DNA of 64,000 nucleotides from positions 3,731,501 through 3,795,500 of the forward strand of contig NC_060107.1 of the NCBI RefSeq assembly GCF_021155765.1, written 5' to 3'. Every line of letters begins with the position of its first letter. Positions within the stretch are counted from its first letter, which is position 1. A model generated the notes under the pieces. That model saw nothing but the letters and a program-made list of their open reading frames with translations. It searched no databases and was not told where the DNA came from. The DNA comes from Diprion similis. Its lineage: Eukaryota; Arthropoda; Insecta; Hymenoptera; Diprionidae. This document shows, piece by piece, positions 9,855 to 57,885 of this stretch. The translations under genes and the position numbers were made by a program.

Positions 9855-12243
9855 TTAGTCACACCAGTCACTGACTGAAGTCTGACTTGGTAATGGCTTT
9901 ACACATCGATGATGTTCGATGTAAAGGGCGTTTACGATTTCGAGATTTTTACTATACTCTTCCTGAAGACTCTCGAGTTCCTGCTCTAGGAAGTGCTTCT
10001 CCTTGCAGAGCATCCGGGGTACGTGGCTCTCCTGCTCCATTCTTTCAGCAGCTAGCACACGAAACTTTCCAAGGAACATTTTCAAGTTTGCGTTTTCTTC
10101 CTGCAGGCGCGCTAACTCTTTTTTAAGCCATTGTCCCCGCATGAATACTTGATGAAGTAGCTTGTCCAATATGTTTGGATCCGCGTGAACTCCCTTACGT
10201 TTCTGGTCCTGTTTAATAAATTGATGAATGAACGAGGATTAATTATATAGTCCAGCGTTTTTTTTATTATTGCTAATCTAAAACAAATTTACCAATTCGA
10301 CATTTTGAAGTGTCGAATTGAAACTAATAAATGACTCTTTATCGTTTACTAATATCGGCTTACAACTTTGATGAGTTTCGTCACTTTTGACTTGTTCTTC
10401 CCGTGTTTTGCCCAATCGAATTTCGGAGATATTTCCAAAAGACGTTGCCGGATTTTCATCGTTCTGTGAACCATCGCATCTGTTAACGAGTGAAATTTTT
10501 GCTTTATGTCATTCTGGGTGTGCATCATTACGTCAGCCTCGTCCTGAACCTGTTTCAAACGAAAATGATATTAGTCGATTTCGGCAAGATTCCGTTACAG
10601 CTCATCCAGAATTGAATTTTATTGCGATTATTCGCAAGAGGAATCGATTTTCGCGGATTTAGCGTAACGAACCTACGGGTTCCACTTTCGTTTCCAATAT
10701 CCGTTACAATTTTAATACAAAAGAATATCTGAGATCACTGATTGCAGCTACTGTTCGATAATGAGAACGCAATTTCGTTATGACGAAATAATGTTCAGCA
10801 ACGTGAAATTCGATTCCCACGTTTACCGCACAATCAAACCGATTAATTCGTAACGAATAATTTCGCTCAGCCTAAACCGCAATTCCACCGTAATTCCATC
10901 ACCGATCCTCCAATAGAGCAGTGATTACATTTTCAAACCAAACCATTTGACAACCCTGGTGAAAATTTTTACTAATACGAAATTTTACAGTAATTGTAAC
11001 GTTCCATATTATTTCATACAAAATTGTAAGTATGCACAGTTTTTCATAAGGAAGTATTAATTTTCTTTGAAAACTGTAGTAATTTGTAGATTTTGTACTG
11101 AGAAAATACAAATTTTCTCGCAAATCTAGAAATTTTTCTGAGAAACTATGAACACTTACAATCTTGTATGAATTTCCTTAAAAATTCGTAGAAAATCGTA
11201 GATATTATTTTCACCGGGGCACTCGAGCATCGATCGAGGAATGACCGTAGAGATCGTCAACAAGCATCTTATATAGTGACAGGACGTAATAAATTCATGG
11301 ATTTCAATACCCTTCGATCAACCGTCTCGTCGACGATATGACGAAAGAAGTTGAGATCTCTGTCCAAAATTTCTCGAAAAAGCATCCCACGGTCAGATAC
11401 GTATGGCGCAAGCGCATATACAAATTCCGCAGCAGTTGTTATTTCGCCGTTGCGTACATCTTCGCAAATCTTTGCTATTCCCCGCAAGTCAGTCTGCCAT
11501 GTAGAGATTACATTATGTGTATAGGCATTATACGGTGTGTAATTACTCAGAGAGCTGTTTTTGCGCAATCGGGCATGGCGAATGTTTCGTTGCAGAAAGG
11601 GAGACAGATTAAATAATTAAATAACGTGCAACTCACACCAGGCTGCAATTGCGCGATGACATCTTTTCTAGGGCACACTGATTTCTGAAACGAATAATCA
11701 ACGTACTTTTTAGTTCATATATCACCCTGAGGACGTATCCTATGAGATGTAATGACAATGTAATCGGTTTCGAAAATTTTTAAACCAATTCATCTCGTTT
11801 TCTCATGTATATCGATATTATAGGGGAAAAATTTCATGGAGGAGACAATTGTGAGGTTCCGAAAACGTGAAGAACTACGATAAGAAAAGTTCGTACTCCA
11901 GACTTGGGGACTGCCGTTGAGAGGTCTTGCGAACAAAGAGCCGGCTTCATTTCGTCAGGCAAAGGCTCGCCGGACTGTACGATGTATCTTAAATAACGAC
12001 CGTATTCATTTCTAGCTCGTCGATCAGCATCCGTCTGGACCTCCTTGCCTACCTGCTGCAGCCATCCGGCTACCGTTTTTCGATCTGGATGAATCAGTTA
12101 ATGCATAATTAGTTTGTAGCCTATAATTGCGTTCAGTGTTCCGGTGAAGTACTGAGGCTCGGACCTTCTTTTGGGTATTTTTTTATATCCTCGGTAATGT
12201 CACGTACGATCTTGCGGAATCCCTCATCGAGATGGTCCGCCAT
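9855..12243 (-). CDS. Uncharacterised coiled-coil protein
   Basis: At least six minus-strand coding segments are seen. Exon 1 is 12243-12165 (start MADHLDEGFRKIVRDI), exon 2 12084-11897, exon 3 11684-11637, exon 4 about 11580 to about 11275, then about 10548-10360 and about 10210-9855 (stop at 9855). Exons 1-3 join in phase; the exon 1 donor (G|GTCCGA) is weak. Exon 4 is clearly coding (YALAPYVSDRGMLFREI), but I cannot find an AG acceptor in the right phase. The last two exons are heptad-rich (KKELARLQEENANLKMFLG), predicting a long coiled coil. The N-terminal 60 residues vaguely resemble DUF4485-type domains; this is a weak guess. A MITE lies in the intron after exon 4. The gene's 5' end abuts the satellite block. 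Confidence 0.65.
10954..11219. mobile_element. MITE-like element with CCCYGGTGAAAAT terminal inverted repeats
   Basis: A 266-bp AT-rich segment starts CCCTGGTGAAAAT (10954) and ends ATTTTCACCGGGG (11219), so the two ends are inverted copies with one mismatch over 13 bp. Weaker inverted similarity continues inward. It has no coding capacity, as expected of a non-autonomous DNA transposon. No convincing target-site duplication is visible, so the superfamily is unknown. It lies in an intron of the coiled-coil gene. Confidence 0.7.
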
Positions 12244-12639
12244 ATTTAGGAATTTTTGAAGAACTGCGCGGCGAAATTAATACTGTGCCAAAAAATATTG
12301 CGAAGGTTAATCGGGGCAGCAGCCCGTCATTAAAAAAAACGCATCTATTAGAAAGTGTAACATCTGACTGTATTTCAATCTCCACCGAAAACACGAGAAG
12401 AACATGATGCTAACAGGTGAAACATCATTTGAAGGATTTATTACTTCTGCTGAAACTGACGTATTATGTTTGATGAATATTATGTCGGAGTATGCGTAAT
12501 AATATTAAATATATTTTTTGCAAATGTTTTTTCATTCTTCATTCCATAGTAATGGGATGAAATGATTGTGTATAATGTATTCTTCTCACAATATTGAATC
12601 GATATGCTGCGAATCTGAAAATCTGTTAAAAATGGATGG

Positions 12640-13020
12640 AAAAACGGCTTATAGTTGGTATTACTTTTTGTTTTGCTATGCGAAGAGCAAACCGTTTTAT
12701 CTGAGGATCGATTTCAGAACTAATTGGAAGCTTGGAAATGGAAAAAGACAATCCAGAACCGTGGACAGGATCAACAGCTGTAGGGGTACGGATGAATTTC
12801 TTTGGTTTTCTGACGGTAGCGTTTTATTCGCTACATGCAATAACTCTAGCCTACACGCAATCAATTTCTGTTGCAAGATTACGTCGGTACAAAGTCTCAT
12901 TTAATTATTATTCTTGCGTTCTCAAACTGTTGAATAATGGACTGGGAGGATGGGGTTAGGGGTTTGCCTTACTTTTTCGGCCACTTTTGGAGTTCGAACC
13001 TTTTTGCGTCGGATTTGATT
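12640..13020 (+). repeat. Decayed satellite units, left edge
   Basis: The landmark TACTTTTT-GG recurs here in degraded form at 12662 and 12970, 308 bp apart, close to the 312-bp period of the core array. Between them lie recognisable remnants such as ATTACGTCGG (12880s), in the order and spacing of an intact unit. These are old satellite copies that have not been homogenised with the core. Confidence 0.7.
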
Positions 13021-13079
13021 TAAATTCCCGTACATAGTCTGCTTGTATTTCTGATGGTTGAAAAAAGACGTTCAAGGCA

Positions 13080-13510
13080 TACCAGGAAAAGGAACTGGAC
13101 GAATACGAAATAATGTTTATTTCATTATTTCAATCCATATGCTACTTCAAATAGTAATGATACATTTAAGTGAACATCGTATTATGCAGAGGTGCATTGC
13201 ACCTGTACGCTAGTCGTAATTTAATACTATACTTATATACGCTACAATAATAATTATGTTATACAACACTTTTTACATTGTGCCCAAGATAATGTATATA
13301 TGTTGAACTTATTTTTCCATAAATAATAGTCAGATTTCAAATGCGATGTTAAATCAATTTCTTGCGTACCTTTTTGTCTTTTACTTGAACACTATTTACC
13401 ATATTGTACAGTACTATACACTGACAAATGAACATGTGTACTAGAATAAAAGCAAATTGAATAAACTATGACTGAAATCTTTATTACTGTATTTTTGTGA
13501 ATTTTCTTTT
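13080..13510 (+). repeat. Left tail: diverged direct repeat flanking the satellite
   Basis: This segment matches the segment at about 23210-23650 in the same orientation. Shared blocks in the same order include TGCAGAGGTGCAT, ATAGTCAGATTTC, ATCAATTTCTTGC, CCTTTTTGTCTTTTA and TTTGAATAAACT-like sequence. The copies are clearly diverged. It contains a small hairpin (AGGTGCA-T-TGCACCT, 13190-13204). No coding capacity is seen. Confidence 0.75.
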
Positions 13511-13609
13511 TCACCTCCTCAAAAACATGGTCCAAAGTTCACATTTGTCGATCCCAAATTTTTATCCATTGACTGCAGATATCTAAGACGAATCAAGTAT
13601 ATCTTACGT

Positions 13610-16600
13610 TGAATGACTATAACTTTTGATCTGTTGGTCGCAGCGTATTGGGACTGCGGTTAATCGAGTTCTCTCGCAAAATTACGTCGGAATAGTACCC
13701 TAACGGATTGTTTGCAGCACTTTTTAAAGTCGTCGAAATTTTCGCCAAAAATCCAAAGGGGTAAGCCTTACTTTTTTGGTCATTTTCGGAGCCGAGAATT
13801 TTTGGTCTTGGAATCGATTTGTATGACCATCTCTAGAGTAATTCGACCCCCAGAAACTCAGAAAACACGTAAAAAAGAGCCTCGGACCAACAGCAGAGAA
13901 ATGGCGAAGAAAATTTCCAGTTTTTCGGCTGTAACTTTTGATGCGTTGATCGCAGCGTATTGGGACTGCGGTTAATCGATTTCTCTCGCAAAATTACGTC
14001 GCAATAGTCCCCTAACGAATTATTCGCAGCACTTTTCGAAGTCGTCGAAATTTTCGCCAAAAATCCAAAGGGGTAAGCCTTACTTTTTTGGTCATTTTCG
14101 AAGCCGAAAATTTTTGGTCTTGGAATCGATTTGTATGACCATCTCTGGAGTAATTCGACCCCCAGAAACTCAGAAAACACGTAAAAAAGAGCCTCGGACC
14201 AACAGCAGAAAAATGGCGAAGAAAATTTCCAGTTTTTTGGCTGTAACTTTTGATGCGTTGATCGCAGCGTATTGGGACTGCGGTTAATCGATTTCTCTCG
14301 CAAAATTACGTCGGAATAGTACCCTAACGAATTATTTGCAGCACTTTTTAAAGTCGTCGAAATTTTCGCCAAAAATCCAAAGGGGTAAGCCTTACTTTTT
14401 TGGTCATTTTCAAAGCCGAAAATTTTTGGTCTTGGAATCGATTTGTATGACCATCTCTAGAGTAATTCGACCCCCAGGAACTCAGAAAACACGTGAAAAA
14501 GAGCCTCGGACCAACAGCAGAGAAATGGCGAAGAAAATTTCCAGTTTTTCGGCTGTAACTTTTGATGCGTTGATCGCAGCGTATTGGGACTGCGGTTAAT
14601 CGATTTCTCTCGCAAAATTACGTCGGAATAGTACCCTAACGAATTATTTGCAGCACTTTTCAAAGTCGTCGAAATTTTCGCCAAAAATCCAAAGGGGTAA
14701 GCCTTACTTTTTTGGTCATTTTCGAAGCCGAAAATTTTTGGTCTTGGAATCGATTTTTATGACCATCTCTAGAGTAATTCGACCCCCAGGAACTCAGAAA
14801 ACACGTTGAAAAGAGCCTCGGACCAACAGCAGAGAAATGGCGAAGAAAATTTCCAGTTTTTCGGCTGTAACTTTTGATGCGTTGATCGCAGCGTATTGGG
14901 ACTGCGGTTAATCGATTTCTCTCGCAAAATTACGTCGGAATAGTACCCTAACGAATTATTTGCAGCACTTTTGAAAGTCGTCGAAATTTTCGCCAAAAAT
15001 CCAAAGGGGTAAGCCTTACTTTTTTGGTCATTTTCGAAGCCGAAAATTTTTGGTCTTGGAATCGATTTGTATGACCATCTCTAGAGTAATTCGACCCCCA
15101 GGAACTCAGAAAACACGTGAAAAAGAGCCTCGGACCAACAGCAGAGAAATGGCGAAGAAAATTTCCAGTTTTTCCGCTGTAACTTTTGATGCGTTGATCG
15201 CAGCGTATTGGGACTGCGGTTAATCGATTTCTCTCGCAAAATTACGTCGGAATAGTACCCTAACGAATTATTTGCAGCACTTTTCAAAGTCGTCGAAATT
15301 TTCGCCAAAAATCCAAAGGGGTAAGCCTTACTTTTTTGGTCATTTTCGAAGCCGAAAATTTTTGGTCTTGGAATCGATTTGTATGACCATCTCTAGAGTA
15401 ATTCGACCCCCAGAAACTCAGAAAACACGTAAAAAAGAGCCTCGGACCAACAGCAGAGAAATGGCGAAGAAAATTTCCAGTTTTTCGGCTGTAACTTTTG
15501 ATGCGTTGATCGCAGCGTATTGGGACTGCGGTTAATCGATTTCTCTCGCAAAATTACGTCGCAATAGTCCCCTAACGAATTATTCGCAGCACTTTTCGAA
15601 GTCGTCGAAATTTTCGCCAAAAATCCAAAGGGGTAAGCCTTACTTTTTTGGTCATTTTCGAAGCCGAAAATTTTTGGTCTTGGAATCGATTTGTATGACC
15701 ATCTCTGGAGTAATTCGACCCCCAGAAACTCAGAAAACACGTAAAAAAGAGCCTCGGACCAACAGCAGAAAAATGGCGAAGAAAATTTCCAGTTTTTTGG
15801 CTGTAACTTTTGATGCGTTGATCGCAGCGTATTGGGACTGCGGTTAATCGATTTCTCTCGCAAAATTACGTCGGAATAGTACCCTAACGAATTATTTGCA
15901 GCACTTTTTAAAGTCGTCGAAATTTTCGCCAAAAATCCAAAGGGGTAAGCCTTACTTTTTTGGTCATTTTCAAAGCCGAAAATTTTTGGTCTTGGAATCG
16001 ATTTGTATGACCATCTCTAGAGTAATTCGACCCCCAGGAACTCAGAAAACACGTGAAAAAGAGCCTCGGACCAACAGCAGAGAAATGGCGAAGAAAATTT
16101 CCAGTTTTTCGGCTGTAACTTTTGATGCGTTGATCGCAGCGTATTGGGACTGCGGTTAATCGATTTCTCTCGCAAAATTACGTCGGAATAGTACCCTAAC
16201 GAATTATTTGCAGCACTTTTTAAAGTCGTCGAAATTTTCGCCAAAAATCCAAAGGGGTAAGCCTTACTTTTTTGGTCATTTTCGGAGCCGAAAATTTTTG
16301 GTCTTGGAATCGATTTGTATGACCATCTCTAGAGTAATTCGACCCCCAGGAACTCAGAAAACACGTGAAGAAGAGCCTCGGACCAACAGCAGAGAAATAG
16401 CGAAGAAAATTTCCAGTTTTTCGGCTGTAACTTTTGATGCGTTGATCGCAGCGTATTGGGACTGCGGTTAATCGATTTCTCTCGCAAAATTACGTCGGAA
16501 TAGTACCCTAACGAATTATTTGCAGCACTTTTCAAAGTCGTCGAAATTTTCGCCAAAAATCCAAAGGGGTAAGCCTTACTTTTTTGGTCATTTTCGAAGC

Positions 16601-19600
16601 CGAAAATTTTTGGTCTTGGAATCGATTTTTATGACCATCTCTAGAGTAATTCGACCCCCAGGAACTCAGAAAACACGTTGAAAAGAGCCTCGGACCAACA
16701 GCAGAGAAATGGCGAAGAAAATTTCCAGTTTTTCGGCTGTAACTTTTGATGCGTTGATCGCAGCGTATTGGGACTGCGGTTAATCGATTTCTCTCGCAAA
16801 ATTACGTCGGAATAGTACCCTAACGAATTATTTGCAGCACTTTTGAAAGTCGTCGAAATTTTCGCCAAAAATCCAAAGGGGTAAGCCTTACTTTTTTGGT
16901 CATTTTCGAAGCCGAAAATTTTTGGTCTTGGAATCGATTTGTATGACCATCTCTAGAGTAATTCGACCCCCAGGAACTCAGAAAACACGTGAAAAAGAGC
17001 CTCGGACCAACAGCAGAGAAATGGCGAAGAAAATTTCCAGTTTTTCCGCTGTAACTTTTGATGCGTTGATCGCAGCGTATTGGGACTGCGGTTAATCGAT
17101 TTCTCTCGCAAAATTACGTCGGAATAGTACCCTAACGAATTATTTGCAGCACTTTTCAAAGTCGTCGAAATTTTCGCCAAAAATCCAAAGGGGTAAGCCT
17201 TACTTTTTTGGTCATTTTCGAAGCCGAAAATTTTTGGTCTTGGAATCGATTTTTATGACCATCTCTAGAGTAATTCGACCCCCAGGAACTCAGAAAACAC
17301 GTTGAAAAGAGCCTCGGACCAACAGCAGAGAAATGGCGAAGAAAATTTCCAGTTTTTCGGCTGTAACTTTTGATGCGTTGATCGCAGCGTATTGGGACTG
17401 CGGTTAATCGATTTCTCTCGCAAAATTACGTCGGAATAGTACCCTAACGAATTATTTGCAGCACTTTTGAAAGTCGTCGAAATTTTCGCCAAAAATCCAA
17501 AGGGGTAAGCCTTACTTTTTTGGTCATTTTCGAAGCCGAAAATTTTTGGTCTTGGAATCGATTTGTATGACCATCTCTAGAGTAATTCGACCCCCAGGAA
17601 CTCAGAAAACACGTGAAAAAGAGCCTCGGACCAACAGCAGAGAAATGGCGAAGAAAATTTCCAGTTTTTCCGCTGTAACTTTTGATGCGTTGATCGCAGC
17701 GTATTGGGACTGCGGTTAATCGATTTCTCTCGCAAAATTACGTCGGAATAGTACCCTAACGAATTATTTGCAGCACTTTTCAAAGTCGTCGAAATTTTCG
17801 CCAAAAATCCAAAGGGGTAAGCCTTACTTTTTTGGTCATTTTCGGAGCCGAAAATTTTTGGTGTTGGAATCGATTTGTATGACCATCTCTAGAGTAATTC
17901 GACCCCCAGGAACTCAGAAAACACGTGAAAAAGAGCCTCGGACCAACAGCAGAGAAAGGGCGAAGAAAATTTCCAGTTTTTCCGCTGTAACTTTTGATGC
18001 GTTGATCGCAGCGTATTGGGACTGCGGTTAATCGATTTCTCTCGCAAAATTACGTCGGAATAGTACCCTAACGAATTATTTGCAGCACTTTTGAAAGTCG
18101 TCGAAATTTTCGCCAAAAATCCAAAGGGGTAAGCCTTACTTTTTTGGTCATTTTCGAAGCCGAAAATTTTTGGTCTTGGAATCGATTTGTATGACCATCT
18201 CTAGAGTAATTCGACCCCCAGGAACTCAGAAAACACGTGAAAAAGAGCCTCGGACCAACAGCAGAGAAATGGCGAAGAAAATTTCCAGTTTTTCGGCTGT
18301 AACTTTTGATGCGTTGATCGCAGCGTAGTGGGACTGCGGTTAATCGATTTCTCTCGCAAAATTACGTCGGAATAGTACCCTAACGAATTTTTTGCAGCAC
18401 TTTTTAAAGTCGTCGAAATTTTCGCCAAAAATCCAAAGGGGTGAGCCTTACTTTTTTGGTCATTTTCGGAGCCGAAAATTTTTGGTCTTGGAATCGATTT
18501 GTATGACCATCTCTAGAGTAATTCGAGCCCCAGGAACTCAGAAAACACGTGAAAAAGAGCCTCGGACCAACAGCAGAGAAATGGCGAAGAAAATTTCCAG
18601 TTTTTCGGCTGTAACTTTTGATGCGTTGATCGCAGCGTATTGGGACTGCGGTTAATCGATTTCTCGCGCAAAATTACGTCGGAATAGTACCCTAACGAAT
18701 TATTTGCAGCACTTTTCAAAGTCGTCGAAATTTTCGCCAAAAATCCAAAGGGGTAAGCCTTACTTTTTTGGTCATTTTCGAAGCCGAAAATTTTTGGTCT
18801 TGGAATCGATTTTTATGACCATCTCTAGAGTAATTCGACCCCCAGGAACTCAGAAAACACGTTAAAAAGAGCCTCGGACCAACAGCAGAGAAATGGCGAA
18901 GAAAATTTCCAGTTTTTCGGCTGTAACTTTTGATGCGTTAATCGCAGCGTATTGGGACTGCGGTTAATCGATTTCTCTCGCAAAATTACGTCGGAATAGT
19001 ACCCTAACGAATTATTTGCAGCACTTTTGAAAGTCGTCGAAATTTTCGCCAAAAATCCAAAGGGGTAAGCCTTACTTTTTTGGTCATTTTCGAAGTCGAA
19101 AATTTTTGGTCTTGGAATCGATTTGTATGACCATCTCTAGAGTAATTCGACCCCCAGGAACTCAGAAAACACGTGAAGAAGAGCCTCGGACCAACAGCAG
19201 AGAAATGGCGAAGAAAATTTCCAGTTTTTCCGCTGTAACTTTTGATGCGTTGATCGCAGCGTATTGGGACTGCGGTTAATCGATTTCTCTCGCAAAATTA
19301 CGTCGGAATAGTACCCTAACGAATTATTTGCAGCACTTTTCAAAGTCGTCGAAATTTTCGCCAAAAATCCAAAGGGGTAAGCCTTACTTTTTTGGTCATT
19401 TTCGAAGCCGAAAATTTTTGGTCTTGGAATCGATTTGTATGACCATCTCTAGAGTAATTCGACCCCCAGGAACTCAAAAAACACGTGAAAAAGAGCCTCG
19501 GACCAACAGCAGAGAAATGGCGAAGAAAATTTCCAGTTTTTCCGCTGTAACTTTTGATGCGTTGATCGCAGCGTATTGGGACTGCGGTTAATCGATTTCT

Positions 19601-22600
19601 CGCGCAAAATTACGTCGAAATAGTACCCCTACGAATTATTTGCAGCACTTTTGAAAGTCGTCGAAATTTTCGCCAAAAATCCAAAGGGGTAAGCCTTACT
19701 TTTTTGGTCATTTTCGAAGCCGAAAATTTTTGGTCTTGGAATCGATTTGTATGACCATCTCTAGAGTAATTCGACCCCCAGGAACTCAGAAAACACGTGA
19801 AAAAGAGCCTCGGACCAACAGCAGAGAAATGGCGAAGAAAATTTCCAGTTTTTCGGCTGTAACTTTTGATGCGTTGATCGCAGCGTATTGGGACTGCGGT
19901 TAATCGATTTCTCGCGCAAAATTACGTCGGAATAGTACCCTAACGAATTATTTGCAGCACTTTTGAAAGTCGTCGAAATTTTCGCCAAAAATCCAAAGGG
20001 GTAAGCCTTACTTTTTTGGTCATTTTCGAAGTCGAAAATTTTTGGTCTTGGAATCGATTTGTATGACCATCTCTAGAGTAATTCGACCCCCAGGAACTCA
20101 GAAAACACGTGAAGAAGAGCCTCGGACCAACAGCAGAGAAATGGCGAAGAAAATTTCCAGTTTTTCCGCTGTAACTTTTGATGCGTTGATCGCAGCGTAT
20201 TGGGACTGCGGTTAATCGATTTCTCTCGCAAAATTACGTCGGAATAGTACCCTAACGAATTATTTGCAGCACTTTTCAAAGTCGTCGAAATTTTCGCCAA
20301 AAATCCAAAGGGGTAAGCCTTACTTTTTTGGTCATTTTCGAAGCCGAAAATTTTTGGTCTTGGAATCGATTTGTATGACCATCTCTAGAGTAATTCGACC
20401 CCCAGGAACTCAGAAAACACGTGAAGAAGAGCCTCGGACCAACAGCAGAGAAATGGCGAAGAAAATTTCCAGTTTTTCCGCTGTAACTTTTGATGCGTTG
20501 ATCGCAGCGTATTGGGACTGCGGTTAATCGATTTCTCGCGCAAAATTACGTCGAAATAGTACCCCTACGAATTATTTGCAGCACTTTTGAAAGTCGTCGA
20601 AATTTTCGCCAAAAATCCAAAGGGGTAAGCCTTACTTTTTTGGTCATTTTCGAAGCCGAAAATTTTTGGTCTTGGAATCGATTTGTATGACCATCTCTAG
20701 AGTAATTTGACCCCCAGGAACTCAGAAAACACGTGAAGAAGAGCCTCGGACCGACAGCAGAGAAATGGCGAAGAAAATTTCCAGTTTTTCCGCTGTAACT
20801 TTTGATGCGTTGATCGCAGCGTATTGGGACTGCGGTTAATCGATTTCTCTCGCAAAATTACGTCGGAATAGTACCCTAACGAATTATTTGCAGCACTTTT
20901 CAAAGTCGTCGAAATTTTCGCCAAAAATCCAAAGGGGTAAGCCTTACTTTTTTGGTCATTTTCGAAGCCGAAAATTTTTGGTCTTGGAATCGATTTGTAT
21001 GACCATCTCTAGAGTAATTCGACCCCCAGGAACTCAGAAAACACGTGAAAAAGAGCCTCGGACCAACAGCAGAGAAATGGCGAAGAAAATTTCCAGTTTT
21101 TCCGCTGTAACTCTTAATGCGTTGATCGCAGCGTATTGGGACTGCGGTTAATCGATTTCTCGCGCAAAATTACGTCGAAATAGTACCCTAACGAATTATT
21201 TGCAGCACTTTTGAAAGTCGTCGAAATTTTCGCCAAAAATCCAAAGGGGTAAGCCTTACTTTTTTGGTCATTTTCGAAGCCGAAAATTTTTGGTCTTGGA
21301 ATCGATTTGTATGACCATCTCTAGAGTAATTCGACCCCCAGGAACTCAGAAAACACGTGAAAAAGAGCCTCGGACCAACAGCAGAGAAATGGCGAAGAAA
21401 ATTTCCAGTTTTTCCGCTGTAACTTTTGATGCGTTGATCGCAGCGTATTGGGACTGCGGTTAATCGATTTCTCTCGCAAAATTACGTCGGAATAGTACCC
21501 TGACGAATTAATTGCAGCACTTTTTAAAGTCGTCGAAATTTTCGCCAAAAATCCAAAGGGGTAAGCCTTACTTTTTTGGTCATTTTCGAAGCCGAAAATT
21601 TTTGGTCTTGGAATCGATTTGTATGACCATCTCTAGAGTAATTCGACCCCCAGGAACTCAGAAAACACGTGAAAAAGAGCCTCGGACCAACAGCAGAGAA
21701 ATGGCGAAGAAAATTTCCAGTTTTTCCGCTGTAACTTTTGATGCGTTGATCGCAGCGTATTGGGACTGCGGTTAATCGATTTCTCTCGCAAAATTACGTC
21801 GGAATAGTACCCTGACGAATTAATTGCAGCACTTTTTAAAGTCGTCGAAATTTTCGCCAAAAATCCAAAGGGGTAAGCCTTACTTTTTTGGTCATTTTCG
21901 AAGCCGAAAATTTTTGGTCTTGGAATCGATTTGTATGACCATCTCTAGAGTAATTCGACCCCCAGGAACTCAGAAAACACGTGAAAAAGAGCCTCGGACC
22001 AACAGCAGAAAAATGGCGAAGAAAATTTCCAGTTTTTCGGCTGTAACTTTTGATGCGTTGATCGCAGCGTATTGGGACTGCGGTTAATCGATTTCTCTCG
22101 CAAAATTACGTCGGAATAGTACCCTAACGAATTATTTGCAGCACTTTTTAAAGTCGTCGAAATTTTCGCCAAAAATCCAAAGGGGTAAGCCTTACTTTTT
22201 TGGTCATTTTCGAAGCCGAAAATTTTTGGTCTTGGAATCGATTTGTATGACCATCTCTAGAGTAATTCGACCCCCAGGAACTCAGAAAACACGTGAAAAA
22301 GAGCCTTGGACCAACAGCAGAGAAATGGCGAAGAAAATTTCCAGTTTTTCGGCTGTAACTTTTGATGCGTTGATCGCAGCGTATTGGGACTGCGGTTAAT
22401 CGATTTCTCTCGCAAAATTACGTCGGAATAGTACCCTAACGAATTATTTGCAGCACTTTTGAAAGTCGTCGAAATTTTCGCCAAAAATCCAAAGGGGTAA
22501 GCCTTACTTTCTTGGTCATTTTCGAAGCCGAAAATTTTTGGTCTTGGAATCGATTTGTATGACCATCTCTAGAGTAATTCGACCCCCAGGAACTCAGAAA

Positions 22601-22962
22601 ACACGTGAAAAAGAGCCTCGGACCAACAGCAGAGAAATGGCGAAGAAAATTTCCAGTTTTTCCGCTGTAACTTTTGATGCGTTGATCGCAGCGTATTGGG
22701 ACTGCGGTTAATCGATTTCTCTCGCAAAATTACGTCGGAATAGTACCCTAACGAATTAATTGCAGCACTTTTTAAAGTCGTCGAAATTTCCGCCAAAAAT
22801 CCAAAGGGGTAAGCCTTACTTTTTTGGTCATTTTCGGAGCCGAAAATTTTTGGTCTTGGAATCGATTTGTATGACCATCTCTAGAGTTATTCGACCCCCA
22901 GGATCTTAGAAAACACGTGAAAACGCGCGTCGGACCAATAGCACACACAGTATGGAGGAAAT
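13610..22962 (+). repeat. Satellite array: about 30 tandem copies of a 312-bp unit
   Basis: Head-to-tail units repeat every 312 bp with almost no indels. Landmarks such as GCAGCGTATTGGGACTGCGG, CCAAAGGGGTAAGCCTTAC and ACCATCTCTAGAGTAATTCG recur at exactly that spacing. Copies differ at a few positions each. Variants are shared at larger spacings: 1560 bp on the left (13.8-15.3 kb against 15.4-16.9 kb, with one extra unit in the second), 624 bp in the middle, and 936 bp on the right (for example ACCCCTACG at 19625 and 20561). The open frames of 75 and 87 codons in the copies are a property of the unit, not evidence for genes. First and last units are degraded. Confidence 0.97.
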
Positions 22963-23150
22963 TCCAGCAGCTGCAAAATTCACATAACAAATTCTTCCTC
23001 ATTTCGGCCTTAACACTTGATCGCTCCCTCGTATCCTAATCAGACTACGCTCAAAAAATTCATACTAAAAATGTAACGGGTCCGCCCTACTTTTTCTGCA
23101 AATTTCAAAGCTCAATACTTTCTGCGTCAGAATTGAATGAAGTGTCCTTC
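22963..23150 (+). repeat. Decayed satellite unit, right edge
   Basis: After the last good unit the sequence keeps weak satellite landmarks (a TTTCGGCCTTAACACTTGATCG-like run, then CCCTACTTTTTCTG at 23085), spaced with deletions relative to 312 bp. This mirrors the decayed units on the left side and leads directly into the right tail. Confidence 0.6.
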
Positions 23151-23209
23151 TCAAGCTTAAATGTATTCCTAAGAATTCTTACAAGACATTCAGAACCATT
23201 TTGTACTAA

Positions 23210-23650
23210 CAGCTGAACGAAGACCAGGAAACGTTTGTTTATTTCTTTCTTTTAATTCACGCTACATCAAATAATTATTATACAATTCCATACACACCAA
23301 ATTCTGCAGAGGTGCATAGCACCCGTACACTGGCTGAAACTAAAACTATACTCTCAAACTACAATACTAATTATCTGGTATCATACTTCTTACATTATGG
23401 ACAAGGTCATGTATATTGCACACATTTGTCCTTATATACAATAGTCAGATTTCCTACGCGACGTTCAATCAATTTCTTGCATGCCTTTTTGTCTTTTATT
23501 TAAACTCTAATAAACACGTACATTGTTAAATTACAGTCAGTATACACTAACACACGAACACTTGTACCAGACTCAAGGAAATTTGAATAAACTGTGACTG
23601 CAACTTTCCAGCTTCCAATTTGTGATTTTTCTTCTCCACCCCTCGAAAAC
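23210..23650 (+). repeat. Right tail: diverged direct repeat flanking the satellite
   Basis: Partner of the left tail (13080-13510), same orientation, lying just after a decayed satellite unit exactly as the left copy does. It ends near a TC-rich run (23660-23700) absent from the left copy. Confidence 0.75.
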
Positions 23651-23659
23651 AGAGTCTCT

Positions 23660-24333
23660 CTTCCTCTCTCTCTTTCGCACTTTCCTTCCTTCGCTAACTG
23701 TCTCTCACTTCTGTTCTGGTTTGCCTCTAAAAACCTTGTATTCACTAGCGACAAAAAATCTGCCGTAAATTATCATTCGGTCTTCCGGTGTATCCAGAAT
23801 CCAACCCACCATCTTCATGATGACATTGATAATTTAAAATTACCCAAGAAGCCTTAGGATGGGTGCGATTCAACCGAATAGATAGGCTGTACAAACAGTG
23901 CCTAATACCTCCAAAGAATGTTTTAATTTGAGACCTCATTTGCTCAACTGTAAAATAATCTACCTCTGATTTGTTAGTCACGTATCTTATTGATAACAGC
24001 CTCACCTGGAGTGAGAGAATTTTTTAGACTGCTCTTGTGAACTTTTGTTTAGTGACATCACGTTGAGGAACTACAACGGAGTGTTCATGCTAACCTGAAT
24101 CATGTACCACATCTATGGACCTTGGCGCTGAAACGTCATTCAAGCAATTGAGTCACAATTTACGTACGAAAAACATCAACGGGAGCGATTTGAAGAACTC
24201 CTGCGATTTTAGTTTTAGTATAGTTATCAAGTGGTTAAACTATTACAAGAAAATATTTCGGTATTGTGTTGCGTTGATTAAATTACTCAACACAAACCGA
24301 GTGGGCACCATTGTTTCATCACTTACAGGTTAA
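23660..24333. other. Between satellite tail and TSG101: likely TSG101 promoter and 5' UTR
   Basis: No gene supported. A 72-codon open frame (24115-24333) ends just before the TSG101 start codon and probably reflects 5' UTR. The TC-rich run at 23660-23700 is low complexity. Confidence 0.4.
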
Positions 24334-26631
24334 ATGGTGAAAATGACTCAAATCAACGAAGGGAAGATAAGGCAGTGCTTAACAAAAGTTAATAACATTT
24401 TTTGTTCGTAGACCAACGCCCTCCGATATTCGCCAACTTTTCATAGCTTTCAAATCATCTAGAAATACAGTTCAAAGTACATCCCTCAAGTTTTGCCCAA
24501 GATCTTGTGCCATGTCGATTCAGATATTGACTTGTATTCATACTGCATAAGTTTTTATAATCTTCACCACCCGTGCTAAACTGATTTAGAGATTTGGAAA
24601 TTCATTCAACAAAGAAACACTTGATCAGCGTGCTTAAGCCTTGCAAATTTATCATATTTTACTTCGTCTTTCGCAGTATCAACATCCCGACCTCACCTAT
24701 CGCGATGTTGTCAGCGTACTCAGCCAATATTTTGCTCTGCAGTATAGAGTAGAGCCGTATGGTACGCAGTTTCCAATATGTTCAATATTTTCTTCAATTA
24801 TATTCAGTAATTAATCTCCTTGATCTTGCTAAACCAATTTCACTTTCAGCAGCTTTCTCTGCTAATCCTAATAGACAATTTAAAGTTCGATCACTTCAGT
24901 GACACACAATAAATTGTAATTAATATTTTTCAACATTTATGATTCAATTTCACAGTATTCACGGATGGAACACGCAAAGAATTATTCAGCTTACAAGGAA
25001 CGATACCAGTTACTTATAAAGGTATAATTATCAAGTTGACAATCCTAAAATATTCCTTCCTATTATTATCTTTACAATACTCATACATATAGAAAGCTAC
25101 AGTTTTGGTTGTCGCGTTACAAAATCGTGGTCCTTCTTTATTTTTCCTTATAGGAAATGTCTACAACATTCCTATCTGCGTATGGTTGATGGATACCCAT
25201 CCCAATAACGCACCAATATGTTACGTTAAGCCTACAGCAGACATGAACATCAAGGTCAGCATGTATGTGGATCACAATGGAAAAATTTACCTTCCTTATC
25301 TTCACGAATGGGTCCCTGTAAGTAAAAATCGTATTTACTCAATTATTCTGTGTTTCACATTAGCAGCAGAATATCTAAAATTGCACAAAATACAAAGAAC
25401 TTGTCTTTTATAGCAAAAATCAGATTTGTTAAGCTTGATTCAAGTGATGAGAATAACTTTTGGAGAACAGCCACCAGTTTATGCTAAACCCAAGAACGAC
25501 AATCAGACTTCTTCAACGCCGTATCCTGTACAGTGTGAGTTACAATAAAAACTGAATATCCAATCTTGTTATTGTTCAGTTATAAAACAAATATCTGATC
25601 TCTGCTATTCATTAAATTTTCTTAATCCATGTAATGATATTGTAGCCTTCATGCCAGTTCCCGGTAGTGGTGGAACTTCTACTAGTGGTTTTCCACCTTA
25701 TCCTAGCGCTTCACAGTACGGAACTGGCAGTAACGTTTATCCACCTTATCCAACATCTGGAACACCTGGAATGCCATATCCTGGGTACACTCCATACCCC
25801 GGTAGCACATCGAGTTACGGGGGACCCGTGTTCCCGGGTTCTTACCCAACGCCATATCCGCCAGTCACACAACCAGTATGTCACATCAATTCTTATTGTA
25901 GTTGAATTGGAGTGTCAGCTAATTTTACCAGCAAAAAGTTTTTTCACTGATTGCTTAATTATTTGGTAATAATGTCTCCCTACTTCGAAACTTCTAATCT
26001 TTTAGTCGCCGAGGGTGCCTGGAAATTCTAGCAACACAGATACGATATCCGAGGAACATATCCGAGAGTCTCTGTTGTCCGCTGTTGGTGATAAATTAAG
26101 ACGCCGTTTGCGTGAGCAGTTATCTCAGGGAGAAGCAGAACTAGAAACTCTGCGTCGCACCGAGCAGGAACTAGCGAGCGGATCAGCTCGGTTAGAGGAA
26201 TTGCTCAACAAGCTGAATCGGGAGAAATCTGAACTTGAGAAAAATATAAATATACTCGAGGAAAAGGAGAGCGAATTGGAAAGAGAAATTAGTAAACTTT
26301 CCGACAATCAAACCATCGATGTTGACGAAGCAGTAACGACAATTGCTCCCTTGTACAAACAGTATGTATATTTGATTTGTTCTTACGACTGTATACCGTA
26401 TAGATTTGTTGTAATTTAAACTGAGCATTTTTTTACCAATCAAGGATGCTGAATGCCTTTGCGGAGGAAGCTGCTATCGAAGATGCGATTTATTATCTTG
26501 GAGAAGGGCTGCGCGGAGGGATCATAGATTTAGAAGCATTTTTGAAGCAAGTTCGACAGCTGTCACGTCGGCAATTTATGCTCCGGGCACTAATGTTGCG
26601 TTGCAGACAGAAGGCTGGTCTGGCAGGATGA
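24334..26631 (+). CDS. TSG101: TSG101, ESCRT-I subunit (Vps23)
   Basis: Eight coding exons join in phase: 24334-24387, 24677-24761, 24956-25021, 25154-25317, 25414-25534, 25646-25875, 26006-26361 and 26445-26631, giving 420 residues. The N-terminal UEV domain (about 1-150) has the family stretches FTDGTRKELFSLQGTIPV and NGKIYLPYLHEW; it binds P(T/S)AP motifs and ubiquitin. A Pro/Gly/Tyr-rich linker covers about 160-240. A coiled coil follows at about 260-335, then the C-terminal steadiness box (YLGEGLRGGIIDLEAFLKQV). It sorts ubiquitinated cargo at endosomes and works in membrane scission. An alternative start at the fourth codon (24343) is possible. The nearest poly-A signal is AATAAA at 26821. 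Confidence 0.96.
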
Positions 26632-51794: not shown

Positions 51795-51897
51795 AAAAAT
51801 GACTGGTCTTCGAAAATTACTCAATATCAAAAAATTTTCACATCATATTAGTATAAACATTTTCTATTATTACAATTTTTCGAAGACCAGTCATTTT
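51795..51897. repeat. 103-bp inverted repeat with near-perfect arms
   Basis: The left arm AAAATGACTGGTCTTCGAAA (from 51796) pairs with the right arm TTTCGAAGACCAGTCATTTT (ending 51897). The pairing extends to about 23 bp with a one-base slip in the T run. The loop is about 55 bp, AT-rich and unstructured by eye. No coding sequence is involved. Confidence 0.85.

Positions 51898-54992: not shown

Positions 54993-57885
<2,893 letters not shown>

Follow-up and report, generated by a model that had tools for sequence, protein, structure and literature searches.

A 312-bp satellite array in Diprion similis: local copy of a genome-wide family probably dispersed as transposon cargo

How did a block of some thirty nearly identical 312-bp units come to lie between two genes of Diprion similis? 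The block occupies part of a 64,000-nt stretch of DNA (hereafter the window; C3:3731501-3795500 of a 269-Mb assembly of 60 contigs), for which an initial annotation had offered a centromeric outpost or a local amplification as the origin. The comparisons set out below point elsewhere: the block is probably a local copy of a genome-wide satellite that was dispersed as transposon cargo, then locally expanded and exchanged.

The array and its flanks

The first description, of a homogeneous intergenic array of about 30 units, has been borne out by measurement. TRF gives 29.9 copies of 312 bp at 13620-22943, with 97% matches and 0% indels, and nhmmer places the units at 13621-22963; the plus-strand array is taken here as 13620-22963. 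All 29 unit-to-unit steps measure exactly 312 bp. Compared with the array consensus, identity is 97.1-99.7% in units 1-28, falling to 96.5% in the first edge unit and 89.4% in the last (from 22668), and eight pairs of units are identical at lags of 2, 5, 6 and 8, marking recurring multi-unit blocks of the sort expected from tandem duplication and unequal exchange. A coding repeat is ruled out by stops in every one of the six frames, the longest stop-free run being 207 codons. A dinucleosome-phased unit of 2 x 156 bp, as had been proposed, finds no support in the sequence, since no half-unit duplication is present (every circular shift gives at most 36% identity) and the 10-bp periodicity of AA/TT/TA is not significant (p 0.22). 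An Rfam scan of 11000-25000 for ribozymes and structured RNAs, at E values up to 1, returned nothing but a SCARNA7 match that, at 18.9 bits, falls below the gathering score of 65, and ARAGORN (bacterial code) found no tRNA. Elsewhere in the window lie a separate tandem pair of period 156 (56344-56658; 2.0 copies, 84% matches), with no visible resemblance to the 312-bp unit, and self-inverted repeats of ~80 and ~100 bp (55498-55577 and 51796-51897; 82% and 77%, respectively).

The surroundings, initially taken for single-copy DNA, are not so at roughly 12695-13620 and 22963-23654, where decayed units (the 312-bp unit being denoted U) and copies of an AT-rich module (T) border the array, all on the plus strand. 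On the left, a relic unit outside T (12695-13026) is matched by a two-unit nhmmer model at 51 bits and by blastn against the unit consensus at 12859-12887 and 12958-13021; a weaker match, to a composite model, widens the relic stretch, which then begins at 12565 and reaches about 13110 (12565-12795, and 12790 onward). The left T module (13115-13550; ~430 bp, 309 bits against the T model) contains a conserved block ending in AATAAA at 13460-13465. On the right, a decayed unit (23065-23231; 26 bits) lies between the array and a second T module (23233-23654; 318 bits, AATAAA at 23586-23591), giving the order U relic, T, thirty U, U relic, T. These two T modules are 73% identical (13114-13527 against 23236-23651) and, among the T copies compared, are each other's nearest relatives, at 74%. 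The right-hand neighbouring gene, first named as TSG101, is supported as TSG101-like by a plus-strand UEV-domain exon at 25093-25413 (PF05743, E 2.5e-24); on the left, two ORFs read from the minus strand (9855-10238 and 11269-11616) match no Pfam family at E 0.001, and the putative coiled-coil gene there, like the gene starts at 12243 and 24334, is taken from the initial annotation.

A satellite family linked to a second module

Kin of the unit are abundant elsewhere in the genome: one 27-mer of U, at up to three mismatches, has 41,258 matches (20,012 and 21,246 by strand) and another 29,861 (14,476 and 15,385), with no match for the reversed control of either. At one match per ~311 bp, the 41,258 matches correspond to about 12.8 Mb, or 4.8% of the genome. 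With long, homogeneous head-to-tail arrays in many genomic copies, U is a satellite DNA; titles on sawfly, Neodiprion, Hymenoptera and Diprionidae satellites, a weak check made at title level, included none found to describe this repeat. Homogenisation is local: in six arrays, units are 94.2-98.4% identical within and 89.7-93.2% between arrays, save for a neighbouring pair on C13, 40 kb apart, which reaches 99.7%; this is a pattern of concerted evolution to which the 304-bp arrays described below are the exception. The best match outside the window array reaches 92% among the 123 matches scored, and the nearest of 30 other array consensuses 92.6%; the window therefore carries its own version of U. 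Across 31 array consensuses the longest invariant run is 6 bp, no longer than expected by chance (p 0.51), which leaves a protein-bound conserved box unsupported, and conservation along U is at most weakly uneven (p 0.07). At C13:194106-203268, a minus-strand array meets a plus-strand unit in a head-on junction at about 203037.

The T module is likewise dispersed, with 28 and 32 matches to the two window flanks as queries, the window's own included. The best 12 of each search, less the window's own four and two duplicates, gave 18 distinct loci, and 312-bp units adjoin T on the same strand in all 18; T is partial in three (L017, L027 and L028). Among arrays found by the unit alone, T was present at five of the eight left edges reached and at one of the six right edges reached, and absent from the remaining three and five. 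A 28-mer from the T core, at up to three mismatches, has 145 matches (control 0). Mean identity among T copies is about 64% (61% with flanks); a search for a conserved RNA fold yielded 0 pairs in 11 copies, and AATAAA is the most conserved hexamer, found in 19 of 21 copies against a mean of 5.0. On the strength of this motif, T may act in array exchange or in transcription.

Two further readings of T have been rejected. Left and right T do not form two old clades, their identities being 0.646, 0.646 and 0.642 and the window's two copies being nearest each other; and an LTR reading, with T as direct repeats around the array, was dropped because U lies on both sides of T at most loci and inverted repeats lie outside. 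At C10:19558977-19583794, eleven T cores follow one another on a single strand, spaced 2165-2793 bp apart in steps of 314 bp, as though a block of T and several units had turned into a higher-order repeat.

Terminal inverted repeats around the satellite

Comparison of the sequence outside U and T uncovered a terminal inverted repeat of ~240 bp, which points outward on both sides and ends ...GTGAAAATCCAGCC; the inverted repeats around the U-T core start GGCTGGATTTTCAC. Matches to a model of this repeat abut U to the right of C8, L011 and L030 and, inverted, to the left of L012 and L015. A search gave 42 matches; the terminal 21-mer, at up to two mismatches, has 38 matches (control 0), with inverted pairs around arrays. 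The complete element at C4:26790095-26800425, read whole, opens with an inverted repeat followed by U and T; next come 22.8 units of 312 bp (95% matches), and then U, T, U and a 320-bp stretch that leads to the closing inverted repeat. Inverted pairs also enclose arrays at C8:25570217-25583085, at C10:21975838-21985127 and, probably, at C12:4461643-4510172, where only the ends were read. Terminal inverted repeats thus surround the satellite at these loci and others, and the alternative that the initial annotation had set against its own reading, namely that the unit is the internal repeat of a transposon, holds at the level of the family. With a U-T core placed between inverted repeats at some loci, the satellite is thus carried by a DNA transposon, old and non-autonomous. 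A Tetris-like foldback element was rejected, U being interior to the ~240-bp inverted repeats and not within them, as was a Helitron or Helentron, terminal inverted repeats being present.

Target-site duplications are unclean: an exact 3-bp match was found in two of six elements (TAA and AAA) and not in the other four. Regarding the features of PIF/Harbinger elements (TWA duplication, DDE_Tnp_4), one TAA/TAA pair occurs among the six, and the genome contains 93 PF13359 matches; no transposase of the family was found, and none of the 93 was tied to the termini. Right-hand junctions of U or T with the inverted repeat vary among loci. Among 24 inverted-repeat ends outside known arrays, U or T lies within 400 bp of 10 and is absent from 14, ten of which belong to five short elements without U (L054, L055, L056, L058 and L065); the 24 ends were picked partly for pairing or a nearby T, so the proportion 10/24 carries a selection bias. 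Three elements that share these termini contain further tandem repeats (L064:2160-2467, L069:1-445 and L063:814-1034): a 26-bp minisatellite is present in two of the three, and 2.4 copies of a 92-bp repeat in the remaining one. A transposase in the 2.9-kb elements L063 and L064, which contain such short tandem repeats, was not accepted, on stop-to-stop stretches judged by eye.

No inverted repeats were detected beside the window array at E values up to 10 (11501-12800 and 23501-25000). The window copy holds the inner part only, U-T-[U]n-U-T, which matches the core of the C4 element, and it would once have possessed inverted repeats as a full element; inverted-repeat loss of this kind is described for MITE-derived satellites in the portion of PMC12628747 drawn on here. 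That many arrays, the window's included, show no inverted repeats, that short inverted-repeat elements exist without U, and that free satellites can, according to the same portion, be captured by transposons (PMC12628747) would all suit an ordinary dispersed satellite of no transposon origin, into which inverted-repeat elements had inserted by chance and of which T was an old edge variant. Such an origin is nevertheless unlikely: the inverted repeat enters U at the same U position at nine of 11 loci judged by eye (L072 doubtful, L070 not), it is oriented outward at either side, and the module order of the window recurs in the complete C4 element, a combination that independent insertions would not yield.

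Array age, exchange and chromosomal setting

Interiors and flanks of the arrays differ in age. Relic units outside T at 13 loci are 58% alike (75 of 78 pairs, each with at least 100 comparable positions), whereas units from the arrays of those loci reach 85%; with T at 64%, array interiors are therefore younger than their flanks. The 304-bp arrays (L046/L020 on C9, L049 on C2, L047 on C14 and L023 on C7) are 94.6-99.7% alike between four contigs, while T at those loci is 53-68% alike. Identity falls abruptly towards T, at differing distances: at L049, three 312-type units (80-83% identical to the 304 type) are succeeded, with phase maintained, by 304-type units (96-100%); at L020, 304-type units give way to a single 312-type unit, which is followed by a decayed unit and T; and at L023 and L047 the drop is present without intact 312-type units. 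A 32-mer diagnostic of the 304 type, at up to two mismatches, has 13,949 matches (control 0), three arrays on C1 included. The likeness of the 304-bp arrays, the divergence of T and the in-phase joins together indicate that array interiors have been replaced between loci while the flanks stayed, and homology-based transfer between arrays would best explain this pattern of identities.

Strong constraint on U, or recent transposition of whole elements in place of array exchange, would likewise yield high identity across contigs, and either seems quite improbable here. The 312-type arrays differ among themselves by about 15%, so U is not that constrained; T and the outer units at the four 304-bp loci are old and different, so whole elements have not moved recently; and sharing a contig does not raise the likeness of array consensuses (0.860 in 31 same-contig pairs against 0.859 in 430 others, four same-array or neighbouring pairs having been removed).

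The distribution of the family bears on another rival, in which a centromeric or pericentromeric satellite would have a euchromatic outpost here and would serve chromosome segregation; this rival is very improbable, and the data leave it unsupported. Although the abundance of U and a monomer within the usual size range would accord with it, U blocks of 3 kb to tens of kb are found on at least 13 of the 14 contigs C1-C14, several on each and in both orientations about equally, with the T core on the fourteenth (C5), among the matches listed; the lack of 10-bp periodicity and half-unit structure, the short invariant run and the near-even conservation of U count against it too.

Harbinger-type PF13359 matches are clustered (C2:0.4-3.3 Mb, C3:18.1-18.9 Mb, C4:6.0-9.8 Mb, C10:0.2-3.1 Mb and C13:10.4-11.0 Mb), and these megabase clusters are possibly heterochromatin. 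Among the matches listed, with 86 of 100 T places and 69 of 93 PF13359 places used (C1, C5, ten of the eleven tandem T at C10:19.56 Mb and adjacent PF13359 fragments being set aside), T cores are rarer than expected within 250 kb of a PF13359 match (2/86 against 8.8%, p 0.008), but not within 500 kb (7/86 against 13.2%, p 0.09) or 1 Mb (16/86 against 19.2%). This rarity, a point entered on the side of a centromeric outpost, speaks, if at all, for arm locations; an exclusion of T from transposase-rich regions was not accepted, the effect being weak and scale-dependent. Least probable of all is an assembly artefact, or an array collapsed or expanded in assembly, against which stand the absence of any N in the window, private variants in single units, graded decay at both edges and diverged T modules on both sides.

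The preferred reading, a satellite dispersed as transposon cargo, would involve an old, non-autonomous carrier, with U, T, [U]n, T and U enclosed in that order by inverted repeats, whose transposition long ago, as opposed to dispersal by another route, would have spread one or few copies of U along with T. At each site U would have grown by multi-unit tandem duplication and unequal exchange, with homogenisation proceeding from the middle outwards and decayed units and T remaining at the edges; the 304-bp variant would then, on several contigs, have displaced the central part of older arrays of 312-bp units, in phase and with flanks unmoved, possibly by homologous integration of circular repeat DNA or by gene conversion. 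The earlier notion of local amplification fits the interior of the window array, with its multi-unit block copies; the seed came from elsewhere. More tentatively, and with the balance leaning somewhat against it, old U-T elements may be fixed arm sites between which satellite variants pass in waves, the 304-bp type having swept array interiors. Recent spread of variants between euchromatic satellite arrays of the Drosophila X, with circular DNA or conversion proposed as the route, was reportedly described by Sproul et al. in 2020; in the present system, old flanking T modules mark the sites.

Satellites derived from MITE-like interiors are already known, and what is distinctive here is the scale, the T module and the flanks that date each site. 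In the parts of the respective sources considered, Tetris of Drosophila virilis, with 220-bp repeats (TIR-220, 610 copies) inside its inverted repeats, large arrays in beta-heterochromatin and target duplications of 8-10 bp, is similarly a non-autonomous DNA element with inverted repeats whose internal tandem repeats have grown into satellite arrays, and its short relative DAIBAM shares only the termini, as do the U-less short elements here (PMC4079207); in D. similis, by comparison, U is interior and beside T, has at least 41,258 pattern matches and is dispersed, and a candidate target duplication, an exact 3-bp match, occurs in two of six elements. The Xenopus MITEs Xstir and miDNA4 likewise have tandem repeats from the MITE interior, with MITE, array and MITE-with-array forms coexisting and arrays from which the inverted repeats have been lost; set against that description, as far as the source was covered, the T module and in-phase variant replacement are features of the present family (PMC12628747). 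The Helitron-associated satellites of Crassostrea gigas, in a satellitome of 6.33%, are also linked to mobile elements and scattered through the genome, on the portion of the source used; the carrier there is a Helitron, whereas here it has ~240-bp terminal inverted repeats (PMC8268682).

Old T modules, decayed units and inverted repeats mark the site and age of each array, whose interior is younger. This contrast provides an internal clock, such that transposition, local expansion and transfer between arrays, which are usually hard to separate for satellites, can be distinguished at many loci within a single genome. The family would also offer an example of a transposon seeding, in gene-rich DNA, a satellite that makes up about 5% of a compact genome.
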